From: Erodium maritimum
Taxonomy: Eukaryota > Streptophyta > Magnoliopsida > Geraniales > Geraniaceae
DNA length: 64,000 bases
Assembly: GCA_963921825.1 (NCBI GenBank)
Contig: OY997589.1
Coordinates: 3,162,001-3,226,000, forward strand
Reading direction: 5' to 3'
The translations under genes were made by a program, and so were the position numbers. The notes beneath the pieces are model-generated. The model saw only the letters and a list, made by a program, of their open reading frames with translations, was not told the origin of the DNA and did not search any database. Position 1 is the stretch's first letter. The number at the start of each line of letters is the position of its first letter. This document shows positions 15,424 to 61,774 of the stretch, in pieces.

Positions 15424-15806
15424 GAGAAAACACCAAGAAACAACTATACCCCAACTTTATAGCTCAAAATACAACTATAGATAATTTTATCGATCAAATC
15501 ACATCGTCCCTAAAGTTAAACTCTAAAAACCATAAACATCCGTCTAAAAATAGACGGACCTTTAACCGTGTGATGGGAAAACTGGTTTGACTTTATATAT
15601 TACAAAATACAACTATAGAGTTATGACTGAAACTGAGGGCAGTTTGGTCTTTACACCAACGCTGTTAACGGACCGTCACAATTTTGACAGATTATTATGG
15701 TTTTTAAAGTTTAACTTTGGGGACGATGTGATTTGATCGATAAAATTGTCTATAGTTGTATTTTGAGCTATAAAGTCGAGGCATAGTTGTTTCTTGGTGT
15801 TTTCCC
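15424..15806. mobile_element. 383-bp MULE-type MITE with 9-bp target duplication
   Basis: Terminal inverted repeats of about 115 bases begin GAGAAAACACCAAGAAAC and, on the other side, GGGAAAACACCAAGAAAC. The flanks are a perfect 9-bp duplication, TTTATATAT, at 15415-15423 and 15807-15815. A 9-bp duplication and long TIRs point to Mutator-like origin. No coding capacity. Confidence 0.85.
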
Positions 15807-21185: not shown

Positions 21186-22845
21186 GGGTTATTATCATCC
21201 GAGTACCCTAAAAATACTTGGTTTTCATCCGAGTACCCTAAAAATACTTTGTGACAGATAAGTACCCAAAACGAAACATTATTTTCAAATCAGTATCCGC
21301 CGTTAGTTTTCCATCCATTTTGGATGGAAAATGGTCATGTGACTAGCACATGACCCCAATTTTTTGAAAAATGGCAATACTACCCCTACCAAAAATAATA
21401 AATTAATTAAAAAATAAATAAATAAGATTTAAAAAAGATGGAAATTTTAAAAATTAAAAATAAAAACATAAAATAGAACTCTCACAACTCTCTCACGAAT
21501 CTCTCTCCCAATCTCTCAAAATCTCTCACATCTCTCACAATCTTCATCTCTACAAGAACAAGCTGGAGAAGGCTCTAACCTTACTCGGTCCGGCGAGGGA
21601 TTTTCGAACCACCACCTGCTCTGTCTTCTTCATCAGCCGACACCATTTAACTCCAACCTGGATCTTCCTTCTCTCCACCTATTTCTCTATGTCTTGTTTC
21701 AGATCTTGTGGTGTTCGTCCGGAGAAGAAGCCACCGTCTCCTCTCTTCTTATTCTTCCTTGTTTTCAATTTTTTGAGTTAGGGTTTGTGACTTTGAGGGA
21801 TTGATTTTGATTTTTTTCCAGATCTGAGATGAACACCACCAAAATGTTCATCCTCTTTATTGATTTTGGTTTTTTTTCTCTATCTAAGATGAGCACCAAA
21901 ACGTGGAACTGTTACAGATCTGAGATGAAGAAATTTTGATTTTGATTTTGATTAGGTTGTTAGTTTTGGGGTTTCATCAGTACTCGTGAATTTGGTTCCT
22001 TTTTCCATCTCAATTTCAGATTTTGGATATTTTCCTTTTCTCTAATTTCTGATTTTGGGTATTTTCCTTTTCTCTAATTTTTGATTTTGGGTGGGTGTTA
22101 TTCCATATCAGTTTCAGTACTCGTGAATTTGGTGTTGGATATGTTGGAAGTTCAAGAATGAAAGAGGGATGTGTTGATTATGATGAAGGATGGACAAAAA
22201 ATGTGTGCTTCTGTTGTGGATTATACATGAATTGTTAATGACAAAATAAGAGAACAAAAAAAGGTAGTAAAATGAAAACTAAATAAATAATATAAATTAA
22301 TTAATTTAAAAAGAATTAAAGAAAATATTACAGATTAAAAATAATAACTTAAAAAAATTAAAATCTGATTTATATATATATATTTTTAAATAAAATATGT
22401 TTTTATTATATATTTATAAAAATATGAATTAATATATTTATATGTATTTTTTAAACTAAAATATGAATTTTAACAATTAAAAATGATTTTTGAAAATTAA
22501 AACTGATTTTTTGAAAATAAAAATGAATTTTTAAAAATAAAAACTGATTTTTTGAAAATAAAACTGATTTTTTGAAAAAACAAAAATAAAAAAGATTATA
22601 AAATAAATAAATAAAAAGAAATTTTGAAATTCAATGGCATGGGTTTGAAAATTTGAGTGTTAGGGAAGGGTATTTTGGACTTTTTGATGTTTTGGATGGA
22701 AAAATGGATGGAAATAGACAGAAACTAACGGCGGGTACTGATTTGAAAATAATGTTTCGTTTTGGGTACTGATATGTCACAAAGTATTTTTAGGGTACTC
22801 GGATGAAAACCAAGTATTTTTAGGGTACTCGGATGATAATAACCC
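21186..22845. mobile_element. Non-autonomous Mutator-like element (1.66 kb)
   Basis: Near-identical terminal inverted repeats of about 125 bases, 21186-21310 and 22722-22845, begin GGGTTATTATCATCCGAG. Each arm contains a short direct repeat, ATCCGAGTACCCTAAAAATA, twice. The 9-bp target duplication TAGAAGAAA is perfect at 21177-21185 and 22846-22854, the hallmark of Mutator-type insertion. The interior has a CT-rich then coding-like stretch (21480-21800) and a long A/T-rich part, but no transposase. The interior may be captured host sequence (Pack-MULE), an inference. High arm identity implies a recent insertion. Confidence 0.9.
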
Positions 22846-24435: not shown

Positions 24436-28760
<4,325 letters not shown>

Positions 28761-29816: not shown

Positions 29817-30183
29817 GGGATAGTCCCACAAAATAACACTAAAGTTGTCATCCCTCTCACTTAATTGCATTGACTTTTAAATTTTCTCATCCTACTACAC
29901 TAAACTTTCAATTTTTCTCACTGCACCTTATTTGGGTAATGAATGACAAAATTACCCCTGCAACAATGAATCATGACTTGATTTTCCACAATTACGAGGT
30001 TCCTATATTAATTTGTAATAACTTTGTTTACGATAATAAATAAAAGAAATTGATGGTACACACATATTGTTGTTCGGCTTCCCTAAATTGTTGTAGGGGT
30101 ACTTTTGTCAAGTGAGGAAAAAAATGGAAGTGTAGTTATGTGAGAAATGTGATAAGTTCTGCGTACTTGTGTGAGATTATCCC
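29817..30183. mobile_element. 367-bp MULE-type MITE downstream of the first F-box locus
   Basis: The ends GGGATAGTCCCACAAAA and ...GTGAGATTATCCC are in inverse symmetry. A perfect 9-bp target duplication, TTAGACTAA, lies at 29808-29816 and 30184-30192. It sits between the F-box frame and its conserved downstream exon, so it would be intronic. Confidence 0.85.
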
Positions 30184-33671: not shown

Positions 33672-33778
33672 AATGTCTTGTTAAAAATGTGTGTTTATGT
33701 ACTTGTACTATTGCTTGTTTTGTTGGGATTCTTTTAAATGGTAATACCAAGTAAAAGTAGGACAACAATTTGTTGGAA

Positions 33779-39028: not shown

Positions 39029-39254
39029 CTGCATCAAAAGAAAGTTCAAGTCCATTTGAATAAACTCATTTTTCAAGTAAAACCATAACTAGACTAATCA
39101 AGCATACAAAAAACATAGACAATTACAAATGTATTCACTTCAAAGGATAGGGATAAAAAAACATTTCCAATATTTGTCAAGATACAAGAAATGAAAACAT
39201 CTAAATATAAAACATAGTTGTGTGGTTCATATAGACAGAATTATATTAAGGTTA

Positions 39255-39492
39255 CTAGGCATTCACTTTTTGCTAGTTTTAACCCTCTTCTTTGATAATT
39301 ATAAAAAGAATCGTGAACTTGTCTTTTTGTCGTACTCTGTGTAAATTTATTTCAAAATGACGTTTTACTCTTAACATTTTAAAAATAATAATTAAATAAC
39401 CAAAAAATCTAAAATTGTCACATCTCTTAAACGAGATGAAAATTCTGGATTTTTTGTTATTTTTTAAAATGGTAAAATTGTCATTTTCAAAC
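39255..39492. repeat. Truncated MITE fragment
   Basis: Contains CATTCACTTTTTGCTAGTTT and TTTCAAAATGACGTTTTAC, matching the interior of the MITE at 36238-36632. Both termini are missing. Confidence 0.55.
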
Positions 39493-39602
39493 CAAAACCA
39501 AAAGCACAACTTTCCAAAGCAACGTTTCATTTTAAGCACTTGTGTTCAACAAAACAAGCAATAATGCAAGTATATAAACACACATTTTTAACAAAGGACA
39601 TT

Positions 39603-40781
39603 TTACCTTGAATTCGCATCGTGAATGCAAGCTTCATATCCCGCCATAGCATCCTTGAGGCGACGAAAAATTGGCCTATAAGCCCTCATTTCCGAAAACT
39701 TATCATCAGAAGACCATATAGTTCTAGTCCGATTGGAACTTGGGTTATACGAAACAACATATTTATGACTATAAAACATGATCATATCACCATTTTCAAG
39801 TTGCCTAAGAGGTACGGTAGACCCAAAATCAACTGAAAACCGTTTCTCCCAAGAATCTCCAACACCATATTCCTTCATAACCCATATCTCATACGAAACT
39901 GCTCCACGCGGAAGCCAACATAGAGAAAGACAACCCCTCAACACTCCAAACAAAGAATTTGAAGCATTACATCGTTGTCGTGATGAGATTGGTACTACTC
40001 CAAACCGTTCCTCCTCGAAATCAAAACAAGCTATACCAGAACGCGCAAAATCATAATGAAGCTTATGTTCGAGGATTACTGATTCTAATCCTACACTTAG
40101 GCGAATCGGGTAAGGGCAACCCCCAACACTTCTCCAGTTAGATCCTTTCTCAAATGTTAATACGTGAGCAATTTTTTTAGGTGAATCAGCACTACACATT
40201 ACTCGTAACAGTTTGAATCGATTTTTCTTCTCGCTGAAGCCTAACCTGTAATTAACAGTTGGGATGATTTCAGAGCTCCATTTCTTCCTCATGGGAACAG
40301 TTATGAACTCGCCCGTAATGGGATTGATTATCAGAGCAAACCCTAAATCGAAACCATGGAAACAGAGTAACCCATTACAGGAATTGGCAAATCTAAAATC
40401 ATGTCTCATTTTCTTCTTCCCCCAAATGATAGTGTTGTTACTTGTGATATCGAATCTTGGGATGTTAAATAAAAATTTGGGCTTTACTTCATAAACACTA
40501 TCGAATCTAGTGAGGTTACCGGAGTGGAATGTTGCGGAGGCGCGAGTAGCGGTGACGGCGGTTCGGAGGAGGAGCAAGGTGGTGGGTGGTCTCTGACGGT
40601 GCAATTTGGCCAAGTGGGTGTCGCCGGAGACGAGATTGAGCCACGATTTGCAGACGCACCTGGCGTCGCCGAGGGTTTTGAGGGGCAATCGGCAGAGGAT
40701 CTCCGTCACCACGTCACTGGGAAGACGGAGAAGATTCGATGTTTCTTCTCTTGAAGCGTTGTTGTTGCTCGGAGATTCCAT
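39603..40781 (-). CDS. F-box protein with FBA domain
   Basis: Uninterrupted, 392 residues, starting MESPSNNNASREETSN. The F-box is LPSDVVTEILCRLPLKTLGD followed by RCVCKSWLNLVSGDTHLAKL. The FBA domain shows FANSCNGLLCFHGFD, NPITGEFITVPMRKKW, NYRLGFSEKKNRFKLLRV, FDFEEERFGVVPISS, GCLSLCWLP, IWVMKEYGVGDSWEKRFSV and GYEACIHDANSR. It is the closest relative of the 32.5-kb gene and of the truncated 36.8-kb copy: all share single-unit GDSWEK loops and DANSR ends. Likely an SCF substrate receptor. A TATAAA box lies 41-46 bases upstream. The terminal stop overlaps a splice donor, with an acceptor at 39029. Confidence 0.88.
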   Translation of the reverse strand: MESPSNNNASREETSNLLRLPSDVVTEILCRLPLKTLGDARCVCKSWLNLVSGDTHLAKLHRQRPPTTLLLLRTAVTATRASATFHSGNLTRFDSVYEVKPKFLFNIPRFDITSNNTIIWGKKKMRHDFRFANSCNGLLCFHGFDLGFALIINPITGEFITVPMRKKWSSEIIPTVNYRLGFSEKKNRFKLLRVMCSADSPKKIAHVLTFEKGSNWRSVGGCPYPIRLSVGLESVILEHKLHYDFARSGIACFDFEEERFGVVPISSRQRCNASNSLFGVLRGCLSLCWLPRGAVSYEIWVMKEYGVGDSWEKRFSVDFGSTVPLRQLENGDMIMFYSHKYVVSYNPSSNRTRTIWSSDDKFSEMRAYRPIFRRLKDAMAGYEACIHDANSR

Positions 40782-43142: not shown

Positions 43143-43476
43143 CTACATCAAAAGATTGTTCAAGTCCATTTGAATAAACCCAATTTCCAAATAAAACCAT
43201 AATTAGACTAATCAAGCATACAGAAAACTTAGACAATTACAAATGTATCAACTTCAAAGAAAGGGGAAAAAAAACATTTCCAATCCTTGTCAAGATATAT
43301 ACAAGAAATGAAAACCATCTAAATATATAACCATAAAAAACAAAGTAATTCCAATAATGATTGTTCTACGTTTGTATGATTTCACAATTTAAAAGAATCC
43401 ATTGTAACTATAGAACAAACCTAAAAGCACAACTTTCCAAACTAGCATTTCTTTTAATCACTAGTATTTAACAAAA

Positions 43477-43864
43477 GGGATAACTCTGTTTCCTAACCTT
43501 TACAAACGTTTCATTATCAGATCCTAACCCAGTCCAACGTTTGGTCTCAATTCCTAACATAATAGGTTTGGAATTTCTCAGAAACTATAAAAAGCCGTCC
43601 AAAATCACGATTCCGTCAACTCGTCGAGCATTGGGTTCGGTTGCTTGAGAACGAGGATAAGTTCAACGTCGAGGAAGGCACCATGGGTAGTGTACGCCAA
43701 CAACGGCAACACTTGGATGAGTTGACGAAATCGTGAGTTTAGACGGCCTTTTATAGTTTATGAGAAATTCCAAACCTATTATGTTAGGAATTGAGACCAA
43801 ACGTTGGCCTGGGTTAGGATTTGATAATGAAACGTTTGTAAAGGTTAGGAAACAAAGTTATCCC
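43477..43864. mobile_element. 388-bp MULE-type MITE at the F-box 3' hotspot
   Basis: Terminal inverted repeats of about 130 bases start GGGATAACTCTGTTTCCTAACC. Perfect 9-bp target duplication TTAACAAAA at 43468-43476 and 43865-43873. The empty site is seen in paralogous flanks at 49046-49054 and 53864-53872. It lies about 55 bases after the F-box stop codon. Confidence 0.9.
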
Positions 43865-43919
43865 TTAACAAAATAAGAAATAATGGAAGTATGAACACAA
43901 ATTTTTAAGGAAATACATT

Positions 43920-45224
43920 TTACCTTGAATTTACATTGTGGATGCAAGCTTCATATCCGGCCAAAGCATCCTTCAGCGGAAGAAGAGTTGGACTATAAGC
44001 ACTCACTTCTGAGATTTTAACACCATACCTTATAGTTCTAGTCCTACTTTGACTCGGGTTATGCAAAACCAAACATTTCTTTTTACACAACATCAGTATT
44101 TCACCATTCTCAAGTTGCTCGAGAGGCACATAACACCCAAAAGGAATAGAAACCATTTTGTCCCACGAATCCTCAACACGATAAATACGTCCAAAACGAA
44201 TAGAAAACATTTTTTCCCACAAATCCTCAACACCATATTCCTTCATCACCCATATCTCATTACAAGTTGCCATATCCGGAAGCCAGCTTAGAAATAGACA
44301 ACCCCTGAAGACCCCGAATACAGAATCGTGCTTCAAAGCCTGAAAGAGTTGTACATGTGTTGGGAATGCTACTACTCCAAATTGTTCATTCTCGAAATCA
44401 AAACAAGCTATACCATCATCAACCGTATCAGAACTCACAAAACCATAATAAAGCATATGATCTAGGATCACTGATTCCGATCTAGCACTATGGAGAATCG
44501 GGTGAGGGCATTCCCCGGTATCCCTCCATTTAGAGCCTTTCTCAAATGTGAATATCTCAGCAAACTGTTTAGATGAGTTATCTCTATACGTTGCTCGTAA
44601 GAGCTTGAATCGATTTTCCTTGTCACTAAAACCCAACCTGTAATGAACAGCTGGGGTGATTTCCTTGCTACATTTTCTACTCATAGGAACAGTTACGAAC
44701 TCGCCGGTAACGGGATTGATTATCACAGCATGCCTCGAATCATACCTTGAATCAGACTTTGAACCAAAGCAGACTAACCCATTACAGGAATTGGCAAATA
44801 TAGGAAAATTCCTCTTTATCTTCATCTTCTCCAAACGGACAGTGTTATAACCAATCCTCTCCATCTCCCCCAAAAGGATGATAGTGTTGTTGCTTGTGAT
44901 GTAAAATTCAGGGAGGTCAAATAAAAGACTGAGCTTTACATTATAGACTAAACTATCGTAAAATTGGAGGTTACCAAAGTAGAGGGTTGTGGAATTGGGG
45001 TCGGATCGGAGGAGGAGCTCGGTGGTGGCGGGTGATCTCTGACGGTGCAATTTGGCGAAGTGGGTGTCGCCGGAGACGAGATTGAGCCACGATTTGCAGA
45101 CGCACTTGGCGGCGGCGACGGTTTTGATGGGCAATCTGATCAGAATATCCGTCACCACGTCACACGGGAGATGTGGAAGATTGGATGTTTCTTCTCTTGC
45201 GGCGTCGTTGCTCGAAGCTTCCAT
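43920..45224 (-). CDS. F-box protein with FBA domain
   Basis: Uninterrupted, 434 residues from MEASSNDAAREETSNL. The F-box is LPCDVVTDILIRLPIKTVAA followed by KCVCKSWLNLVSGDTHFAKL. FBA landmarks are FANSCNGLVCFGSKSDSR, NPVTGEFVTVPMSRKC, HYRLGFSDKENRFKLLRA, FDFENEQFGVVAFP, GCLFLSWLP, IWVMKEYGVEDLWEKMFSI and GYEACIHNVNSR. After EDLWEKMFSIRFG the segment is repeated as VEDSWDKMVSIPFG, making this the longest member. Closest to the 53.9-kb gene. The leader immediately upstream carries a stray piece of F-box coding sequence, and a retroposon is inserted just beyond it. Likely an SCF substrate receptor with unknown target. Confidence 0.87.
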   Translation of the reverse strand: MEASSNDAAREETSNLPHLPCDVVTDILIRLPIKTVAAAKCVCKSWLNLVSGDTHFAKLHRQRSPATTELLLRSDPNSTTLYFGNLQFYDSLVYNVKLSLLFDLPEFYITSNNTIILLGEMERIGYNTVRLEKMKIKRNFPIFANSCNGLVCFGSKSDSRYDSRHAVIINPVTGEFVTVPMSRKCSKEITPAVHYRLGFSDKENRFKLLRATYRDNSSKQFAEIFTFEKGSKWRDTGECPHPILHSARSESVILDHMLYYGFVSSDTVDDGIACFDFENEQFGVVAFPTHVQLFQALKHDSVFGVFRGCLFLSWLPDMATCNEIWVMKEYGVEDLWEKMFSIRFGRIYRVEDSWDKMVSIPFGCYVPLEQLENGEILMLCKKKCLVLHNPSQSRTRTIRYGVKISEVSAYSPTLLPLKDALAGYEACIHNVNSR

Positions 45225-48788: not shown

Positions 48789-49082
48789 CTGCATCAAGAG
48801 ATATTTCAAGTTCAGTCGAATAAACTCAATTTCCAAATGAAACCACAATTAGACTAATCAAGCATACAAAACTTTTAGATAATTACAAATGTATTGACTT
48901 CAAAGAATAAAATTGATGTTACGGAACAAAAACAAAGTACTTCCAATAATAATTGTTCTATTTTTATATGCTCTCACCATTCAAAAGAATCCATTGTAAC
49001 TATAGAACATACCTAAAAGCACAACTTTCCAAAGTAACATTGTATTTAACAAAATAAGAAATAATGCAAGTATAAACACACA

Positions 49083-53570: not shown

Positions 53571-53918
53571 CTGCATCAAAAGATCGTCCATTTGAATAAA
53601 CCCAATTTCCAAATGAAATCATAATTAGACTAATCAAGCATACAAAACACTTTGACAATTTACAAATGTATGAACTTCAAAGGATGGAGAAAAAAACATT
53701 TCCAATCTTTGTCAAGGTACAAGAAATGAAAACCATCTAAACATATAACAGATCATAGTGTGTATTGTTCTACTTTTGTATGCTTTCACCATTTAGAAGA
53801 ATCCGTTGTAACTATAATGCAAGTACAACTTTCCAAAATAGCATTTCTTTTAATCACTTATATTTAACAAAATAAGCAATAATGTAAGTATAAACACACA
53901 TTTTTAAGGAAATACATT

Positions 53919-59474: not shown

Positions 59475-59709
59475 CTGCATCAAGAGATCTTTCAAGTCCA
59501 GTTGAATAAACTAAATTTCCAAATAAAACCACAATTAGACTGATCAAACATACAAAACTTTTAGATAATTACAAATGTAGTGACTTCAAAATATTAGTGT
59601 TACTATGTAATCACGAAGTAAACAAAAATAAAAGTACTTCCAATAATGATTGTAATTATAGAACAGACCTAAAGGCACAACTTTCCAAAGCAACATTGTA
59701 TTTAAGAAA

Positions 59710-60018
59710 GGGATAACATCAGAAAACAACGTTTGACTTCCTAGTACGAATCACAACTATAGACTTTCTTATCGTCCATAGTACACAGTCCCGTTAGTTA
59801 AATTACCACAAACCATGAATTCCGTCCAAAAACACGGAATATTCTGTATTCTTGGCTAGAATATTCCGTGTTTTGAACAGAATATTCCATGTTTTTGGAC
59901 AGAATTCATGGTTTGTGGTAATTTAACTATCGGGACTGTGTACTATGGACGATAAGAAAGTCTATAGTTGTGATTTGTACTAGGAAGTCAAACGATAGTT
60001 GTTTTCTGGTATTATCCC
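59710..60018. mobile_element. 309-bp MULE-type MITE at the F-box 3' hotspot
   Basis: Begins GGGATAACATCAGAAAACAAC and ends in its inverse complement with small indels; arms of about 130 bases. Target duplication TTTAAGAAA (59701-59709) and TTTAACAAA (60019-60027), one mismatch. Different family from its neighbour. Confidence 0.8.
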
Positions 60019-60028
60019 TTTAACAAAA

Positions 60029-60280
60029 AGGGAAACCATGGTTCCTAACCCCGTTTGACCTTTGTTTTCCCGATCCTAACTTGGGTTTACCTTTTGTTGC
60101 ATTTTCCAACTATCACCTTTCATTTTTTTGCAAAAAGTATCATTTACCGTTTATTTTGACGATTTCTGATACTTTTTGCAAAAAATGGAAAGGTGATAGT
60201 TAGGAAATGCAACAAAAGATAAACCCAGGTTAGGATCGGGAAAACAAAGGCGAAAGGGGGTTAGGAACCATAGTTACCCC
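60029..60280. mobile_element. About 252-bp MULE-type MITE next to the preceding one
   Basis: Ends (A)GGGAAACCATGGTTCCTAAC and GTTAGGAACCATAGTTACCC(C) in inverse symmetry, arms of about 100 bases. TTAACAAAA flanks it at 60020-60028 and 60281-60289. Its ends are related to those of the MITE at 43477-43864. Confidence 0.75.
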
Positions 60281-60319
60281 TTAACAAAATAAGCAACAAA
60301 GCAAGTATAAACACACATT

Positions 60320-61609
60320 TTACCTTGAATTCACATCGTGGATGCAAGCTTCATATCCGGCCAAAGCATCCTTCAGCGGAAGAAGAGTTGGACTATACAC
60401 ACTCGCTTTTTCAACACCATATCTTATAGATCTAGTCGTGGTCTCACTCGGGTTATGCATAACCAAGCGTTGATGTTTACACATGAGTATTTCACCGTTT
60501 TCAAATTGCTTGATAGGTACATGACACGCACGAAGATGTTCTTCCCCGCATGAATCTTCAACACCATTTTCAAGTTGCTTTACAGGTAGACGACACACAA
60601 AAGGAACGAAAAACATTTTTTCCCATGAATCTTCAACACCATATTCCTTCATCACCCATATCTCATTACAAATTGCATCATACGGAAGCCAACTTAGAAA
60701 TAGACAACCCCTGAAGACTCCAAATAAAGATTTGCGCATTAAACCCTTACAATGTTGTGACGATGGTATTGGTACTACTCCAAACCGTTCCTTCTCGAGA
60801 TCAAAATAAGCTATACCAGAACCCACCACATCATAGTGAAGCTTATGTTCTAGGATTACTGATTCTGACCCGTCTCTTCCTAGAATCGGGTGAGGGCAAT
60901 CTCCGACATCTCTCCATTTAGACCCTTCCTCAAATGTGAAGATCTCAGCAAATTGTCCAGATGAATTAACTCTACCCGTTGCTCGTAAGAGCTTGAATCG
61001 ATCTTCCTTCTCACTAAAACCTAACCTGTAATTAACAGTTGGGATGCTTTTCTTGCCCCATTTTGTACCCATAGGAATAGTTAGGAACTCGCCCGTGACG
61101 GGATTGGCTATCACTGCACCCGCTGAATTAAACCTTGAATCATATACACTTTCGAAGCAGACTAACCCATTACACAAATTGGCAACCCTAAGACAATTCT
61201 TCCTTATCTTCCCCAAACTGTTAGTGTTAAGATCATTACTATTTATCTCACCCCAATGGACGATAGTGTTATTATTGGTTGTGATATAGCATTCAGGGAG
61301 GTTAAATAAAACACTGAGCTTTGCATCATAAACATTATCATTGTGAAATTGGAGGTTACCGAAGTAGAGGGTTGTGGAGTAAGCGGAGGATCGGAGGAGG
61401 AGCTCGGTGGTGGGTGGTCTACGGCGGTGCAATTTGGCCAAGTGGGTGTCGCCGGAGACGAGATTGAGCCACGATTTGCAGACGCACTTGACGGCGCCGA
61501 CGAGGGTTTTGATGGGCAATCTGCAGAGAATCTCCGTCAAGACGTGAGTCGGGAGATGTAGAAGATTCGATAGCTCTTCTCTTGCAGCTTTGTTCCTCGG
61601 AACTTCCAT
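60320..61609 (-). CDS. F-box protein with FBA domain
   Basis: Uninterrupted, 429 residues from MEVPRNKAAREELSNLLH. The F-box is LPTHVLTEILCRLPIKTLVG followed by KCVCKSWLNLVSGDTHLAKL. FBA landmarks are VANLCNGLVCFESVYDSR, NPVTGEFLTIPMGTKW, NYRLGFSEKEDRFKLLRA, FDLEKERFGVVPIPS, GCLFLSWLP, IWVMKEYGVEDSWEKMFFV and GYEACIHDVNSR. The segment after EDSWEKMFFVPF is duplicated (VEDSCGEEHL), as in the 49-kb copy, its closest relative. The frame stays open 32 codons upstream (to an ATG at 61705), and part of that, ELELGFVNTP, recurs in the 49-kb leader. I prefer the family start at 61609. Confidence 0.87.
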   Translation of the reverse strand: MEVPRNKAAREELSNLLHLPTHVLTEILCRLPIKTLVGAVKCVCKSWLNLVSGDTHLAKLHRRRPPTTELLLRSSAYSTTLYFGNLQFHNDNVYDAKLSVLFNLPECYITTNNNTIVHWGEINSNDLNTNSLGKIRKNCLRVANLCNGLVCFESVYDSRFNSAGAVIANPVTGEFLTIPMGTKWGKKSIPTVNYRLGFSEKEDRFKLLRATGRVNSSGQFAEIFTFEEGSKWRDVGDCPHPILGRDGSESVILEHKLHYDVVGSGIAYFDLEKERFGVVPIPSSQHCKGLMRKSLFGVFRGCLFLSWLPYDAICNEIWVMKEYGVEDSWEKMFFVPFVCRLPVKQLENGVEDSCGEEHLRACHVPIKQFENGEILMCKHQRLVMHNPSETTTRSIRYGVEKASVYSPTLLPLKDALAGYEACIHDVNSR

Positions 61610-61774
61610 GGATCGTCTTGGGAAGAAGACAGAGATTGTGGGAGTATTGACGAACCCCAATTCCAATTCCTCAGATTTAGGGTTTTGAATATCCATAATT
61701 TCCAAATATATTCTTACTTACTTGACAATTAAAACATTGTTTTTTATTACATGTTTAAGTAGATTGATTTTTTT

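Follow-up and report, generated by a model that had tools for sequence, protein, structure and literature searches.

On contig OY997589.1 of Erodium maritimum, F-box genes form a tandem array that runs largely along the minus strand. We think it likely that different families of non-autonomous, Mutator-type miniature inverted-repeat transposable elements (MITEs) inserted independently of one another in one predicted intron of these genes. The analysis started from a stretch of 64,000 nucleotides (C2:3162001-3226000; hereafter the window, in whose numbering positions are given) and extended to the genome (763 Mb, 40 contigs). Three gene copies carry four such elements, C, A, B and H, which are flanked by separate 9-bp duplications and whose insertion points all fall within 8 bp of homologous sequence. 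This coincidence of position probably stems largely from a loose AT-rich landing motif shared by all four.

Elements at a homologous site of F-box paralogues

MITE C (43477..43864; 388 bp, near-palindromic and repeated in the genome) lies beside the F-box/FBA_1 frame of the 43.9-kb copy (43920..45224, minus strand), between left and right 9-bp target duplications TTAACAAAA (43468..43476 and 43865..43873). In the 60.3-kb copy (F-box frame 60320..61696, minus strand), MITE A (59710..60018; 309 bp, a distant relative of an element D) and MITE B (60029..60280; 252 bp) stand in tandem at a target site common to both. B is flanked by TTAACAAAA on its left (60020..60028), where it overlaps the right duplication of A, and on its right (60281..60289). 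The duplications of A, TTTAAGAAA on the left (59701..59709, one base different) and TTTAACAAA on the right (60019..60027), are offset by one base from the C/B site and differ from each other by one mismatch. Thus, the coordinates that an initial annotation of this DNA had given for three MITEs sharing a homologous site across two F-box paralogues hold, while its statement that each carries a 9-bp duplication of this site is accurate for C and B but not for A, which is shifted by one base and has one mismatch. Either B lies inside the right site copy of A or A lies inside the left copy of B. The homologous site is empty, as had also been claimed, in the sister of the 60.3-kb copy (49.1-kb copy; 49046..49054, plus strand) and in the sister of the 43.9-kb copy (53.9-kb copy; 53864..53872, plus strand).

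C, A and B are all long inverted repeats, with arms of 151 nt (94%), 118 nt (97%) and 116 nt (90%), one pair per element. The TTAACAAAA 9-mer occurs eight times in the window, against 2.44 expected, a number reached in one of 100 shuffles. When the window was scanned for GG...CC ends with a 9-bp duplication, six matches including A and C were returned, compared with a mean of 0.5 and a maximum of two in 20 first-order Markov shuffles; B is absent from the matches because its left terminal base is changed (A, where relatives of B have G). One of the six, at 39150-40422, spans an F-box gene and was taken as spurious.

The fourth element, H (366 bp, AATAAGCAA on both sides), lies 7 bp from the C/B site in gene copy L069. 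For a wider comparison, 15 F-box stretches from other parts of the genome were added to the window copies; a further six places on C2 (2.83-2.90 and 3.04 Mb) with weaker matches were left aside, and the distant copies L073 to L077 were kept out of both the tree and the resulting count of 18 copies. Among these 18, the site is occupied in two (43.9 and 60.3), has H 7 bp away in one (L069), is empty and exact in five (49.1, 53.9, L064, L065 and L068), is empty with a changed base in four (36.8, 39.6, L063 and L070), and is deleted or too diverged in six (30.3, 33.7, L066, L067, L071 and L072). In the 33.7-kb copy (33715-33724), a gap of 60 intron bases begins immediately behind the target-site TTTTGTT, which could be the scar of a lost element or chance.

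Independence of the insertions

The elements differ from one another. The ends of C and B are distantly related (score 35, reached by none of 200 shuffles), A and B are unlike (score reached by 121 of 200), and likeness between A and C is marginal at most (4 of 200); among the six pairs that C, A, B and H can form, C-B alone is clearly above the shuffles and four pairs fall within them. The claim of at least two element families is thereby borne out. Small indels on both flanks of the site pair the 43.9-kb copy with the 53.9-kb copy and the 49.1-kb copy with the 60.3-kb copy, and the same pairs are recovered in the tree of 18 copies, with support of 100/99 and 83/79, respectively. In approximately unbiased (AU) tests, a clade of the two occupied copies was rejected (p-AU 0.00019), as was a clade of these two with L069 (p-AU 1.65e-5). 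Because the elements differ, because in flanks and tree alike the partner of each occupied gene is an empty copy, and because the occupied clade is rejected, these comparisons indicate that C, A and B inserted independently, as the initial annotation had proposed. The possibility that it had set against this proposal, one ancestral insertion duplicated with the genes, is rejected for the elements now present by the flanking indels and the tree.

Sequence traits and copy number of the elements

First-look searches of the genome returned 1056 candidates for C, 373 for A, 1328 for B and 1214 for H. Forty copies were scored per family, with identities of 96-100% for C and 91-100% for A, and a 32-base pattern for the C end matched 754 times in the genome (up to three mismatches), compared with none for a control pattern. 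Duplications were read at the 30 best of the 40 scored copies each for C and A, and at 20 B loci and 16 single H loci picked by hand from the places listed in the searches. With ends chosen to fit, a 9-bp duplication with at least eight of nine bases matching was present at 27/30 C and 30/30 A loci, and at 25/30 and 29/30, respectively, when the element length was also required to fit; five C loci and one A locus were dropped for unclear ends, and the window copies of C and A were dropped too. Duplications with acceptable ends were found at 17 of the 20 B and 10 of the 16 H loci, the other three and six being dropped.

The terminal inverted repeats of the elements are long, with termini of GG(G) type (for example GGGATAAC and GGGGTAAC), and sampled copies of all four families show GG...CC ends. 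A, B and C measure 252-388 bp, contain no internal open reading frame of at least 120 aa and are repeated in the genome. On these structural traits, we class A, B, C and H as Mutator-type (MULE-like) non-autonomous MITEs.

A predicted intron around the site

The apparent F-box stop overlaps a splice-donor sequence in 18/18 copies (AAG/GTAA in 17, AGG/GTAA in L068), a count biased upward because the donor was part of the query with which the copies were recruited by similarity. A pattern search detected an acceptor-like sequence, in most cases GATGCAG with GAGGAG or a similar string behind it, in 12/18 copies, and the patterns gave no match in the stretch searched of the other six. The introns predicted in this way, from sequence only, span 43143..43923 in the 43.9-kb gene (minus strand, AAG/GT ... 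TAG), containing C, and 59475..60323 in the 60.3-kb gene (minus strand, AAG/GT ... CAG), containing A and B; the C/B insertion site lies about 50 bases downstream of the predicted donor. Joined at the predicted junction, the 49.1-kb frame extends for 44 residues past the split arginine of NSR and then reaches a stop, and several other joined copies, for example 39.6 and L063, reach a stop within a few residues. Since the F-box stop overlaps a donor in every copy, the insertion site is probably intronic rather than at the 3' end of the gene.

Another element, MITE E (29817..30183), with the duplication TTAGACTAA, occupies a different position in the corresponding predicted intron of the 30.3-kb copy. 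In gene sense its insertion point is TTAGTCTAA, at a TTAGTCTAAT stretch that is retained in several copies and looks like a branch-point region. The introns of L066 (1-760) and L067 (1-822) have in common an insert with GGTTTGAACCCG, which looks like a tRNA-derived short interspersed nuclear element.

A degenerate AT-rich target motif

From 52 C and A sites, without the window copies, a symmetric 15-base profile TWA-(TWNWWWNWA)-TWA was obtained. When the sites of each family were scored with a profile made from the other three, their median percentile among the 15-mers of the window was 0.985 for C (24 sites), 0.977 for A (28 sites), 0.981 for B (17 sites) and 0.975 for H (10 sites), as compared with 0.94 for the AT content of the 9-mer alone. 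In the empty intron of the 53.9-kb copy, the insertion points of H, C/B, A and E rank 3, 5, 9 and 12, respectively, of 338 positions by a profile from which these F-box sites had been kept out; an earlier two-family profile had ranked H 2, C/B 7 and A 15.

No two of the left duplications read at 27 C and 30 A loci are the same 9-mer, and TTAACAAAA is therefore rejected as the fixed target sequence. It has served as a target on at least one other occasion: the combination of TTAACAAAA and an adjoining GGGATAAC is present twice in the genome, compared with once for a reversed control, and the second instance is a C-like element on C1 (L001:1501-1954) that TTAACAAAA borders at either end, the surrounding sequence being different. 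Because the motif predicts held-out families and the intron sites that were used rank high, the profiles indicate that what is preferred is a degenerate AT motif and not this set of genes. The initial annotation had inferred that the 3' end of these genes is strongly preferred as a target; this part of it is not supported, given that the left duplications all differ, that one degenerate AT motif fits four families and that the site is probably intronic.

Clustering and competing explanations

Based on these results, we favor independent insertion of different Mutator-type MITE families in the predicted intron, guided by the motif. Mutator-type transposases would read a degenerate, symmetric AT target; as this target would be copied to both sides at every insertion, the site would stay usable, and A and B could stack because each insertion leaves target copies on either side. 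Insertions would be tolerated in the intron and not in exons.

Several observations weigh against this interpretation. The 49.1/60.3 pair has moderate tree support only. The predicted intron is a good inference rather than a shown fact. The motif is weak and picks no single site: the nine positions that span the insertions hold 14% of the intron motif weight, while another nine-position stretch (start 48) holds 17%. For four of seven events within 8 bp, the probability is 0.0019 under uniform insertion and still 0.045 when weighted by the motif; without B, which is stacked on A, the values for three of six are 0.034 and 0.18. Four of the seven window elements with duplications read (A to G) lie in predicted F-box introns, which make up 7% of the bases and 10% of the motif weight, with probabilities of 0.0007 (uniform) and 0.0024 (motif-weighted); intron ends are off by one base in this count. 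The number of events is uncertain, from four to seven, with the F-like inserts (33.7, 36.8 and L063) and the L070 insert entering through this range only, and the clustering and intron-enrichment probabilities were asked for after the pattern had been seen. Finally, the MULE transposase domain PF10551 has 1627 candidates in the genome, of which 150 were scored, all above the cut-off. Visual comparison placed not one of the 150 closer than 5 kb to any of 100 of the 754 C ends, and no transposase with matching ends was found among these domains and ends.

In our reading, the motif explains much of the clustering, with a modest extra local effect possible; since the motif-weighted clustering probability is about 0.05-0.2, any additional local hotspot is modest. 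A feature beyond sequence, such as open chromatin, DNA structure or a bound protein near the intron start, might nevertheless be the true hotspot, with the motif setting only the exact base. Clustering that is mildly unusual even when motif-weighted, and the enrichment of elements in these introns, speak for it, and the authors of a maize RescueMu study favored DNA structure or a gene-associated protein over a motif for its hotspots (PMC545602). Given how much the motif accounts for, and that the counts are small and the question came after the fact, we regard such a feature as rather unlikely. Much the same doubt attaches to a bolder version, in which the F-box intron would begin with a landing pad that renews itself: the symmetric AT motif, together with some local property of chromatin or DNA structure, would draw several Mutator-type families, each insertion would duplicate the target, and elements would stack over time. 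Were it true, the tandem paralogues would be parallel replicates of one insertion experiment.

Alternatively, MITEs may have inserted widely and survived mainly in the introns of redundant genes, the focus then being one of survivorship. Predicted F-box introns contain four of the seven window elements, no F-box coding frame contains any, and the introns hold further inserts, such as the one common to L066 and L067. Selection of this kind would account for intron versus exon, but not for four insertions within 8 bp of a 352-bp intron, and as the main explanation it is improbable. Coincidence without any target preference is more doubtful still as an account of the data: although simulations of uniform insertion bring two or more of six or seven events within 1 bp in 13-17% of runs and place three of six within 8 bp in 3%, the four of seven observed are rare under uniform insertion, the sites used all rank within the first 12 of 338 by an independently trained motif, and this motif predicts held-out families. 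One ancestral insertion, duplicated with the genes and precisely lost from the empty copies, is hardly credible and is rejected for the elements now present, for although the C and B ends are distantly related and in the same register and the peanut element AhMITE1 is said to have excision activity (PMC9277781), the sequence on either side of the site groups every occupied copy with an empty sister, the occupied-copy clade is rejected, C is 96-97% like other genomic copies and only distantly like B, and five copies retain an intact, unduplicated site.

Relation to known insertion hotspots

Independent insertion at the same site is already known for Mu, PIF and Stowaway elements, and the F-box case is a real, independent and clear natural example of this known kind of hotspot. 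Maize RescueMu insertions were recovered at identical sites in independent grids (PMC545602), and the maize Mu target is weak, symmetric and G+C-rich, of the form CCT-(target site duplication)-AGG or SW::SWNNNNNWS::WS (PMC545602, PMC2774946). Maize Mutator (Mu/RescueMu) thus resembles the present case in its 9-bp duplications, its weak, 15-base dyad-symmetric target profile and its same-site insertions. It differs in that the sites here are A+T-rich and do not follow the G+C-rich CCT...AGG pattern, and in that we observe MITEs of several families in the paralogues of one assembly.

Stowaway MITEs inserted repeatedly and independently in intron 4 of Triticeae beta-amylase genes, as argued from polyphyly of the gene tree and divergence of the elements (PMC1925063), and they likewise represent recurrent MITE insertion at one intron site. 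Those elements are of Tc1/mariner type with a TA duplication, the comparison runs across species rather than paralogues, and excision footprints are reported there, whereas we noticed none here. PIF elements recurred at one site of a maize r gene (as cited in PMC1925063) and belong to another superfamily than the present elements. AhMITE1 of peanut shares 9-bp duplications and GG ends with our elements, its AT-rich duplications being almost all different and favoring TTATTTTAA; it is 205 bp long with 25-bp ends, and same-site recurrence is not seen for it in the accessible text (PMC9277781). Neither the present case nor this AT motif was found in the literature searched, a scope outside which most subscription papers fall.

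Since one weak, symmetric AT target is common to four families, same-site insertions in paralogues or species can recur. A MITE position held in common is consequently no proof of common descent unless the element itself is checked. A site that is filled in some tandem paralogues and empty in others also provides a natural replicate test of where Mutator-type MITEs land.

Stacking, nesting and other elements

Nesting among these families is not special to F-box genes: in L035 the target copies of A and of an adjoining H overlap, L118 has C inside an H element (duplication TAGTTAGTT, 14 H bases remaining beyond it), and in L039 a D-like element contains an A insertion. Tandem arrays of H (L098 to L101) were considered as repeated insertion into each other's duplications and not used; L098 has no clear shared duplication and is more like a dimer. 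In L099, L100 and L101, several H-like stretches follow one another, with spacings of about 28 to 84 bases in L099 and L100.

Further elements occur elsewhere in the window. Element D (15424-15806, duplication TTTATATAT) is about 70% like A in parts. Element F (28281-28630) has the duplication TTGTTTTTT, and F-like inserts are present in the introns of 33.7, 36.8 and L063, perhaps one ancestral insertion inherited by duplication. A 1660-bp element at 21186-22845 has a perfect 9-bp duplication, TAGAAGAAA, and 125-nt inverted arms that are 98% complementary; stretches resembling it lie near several A and C loci.
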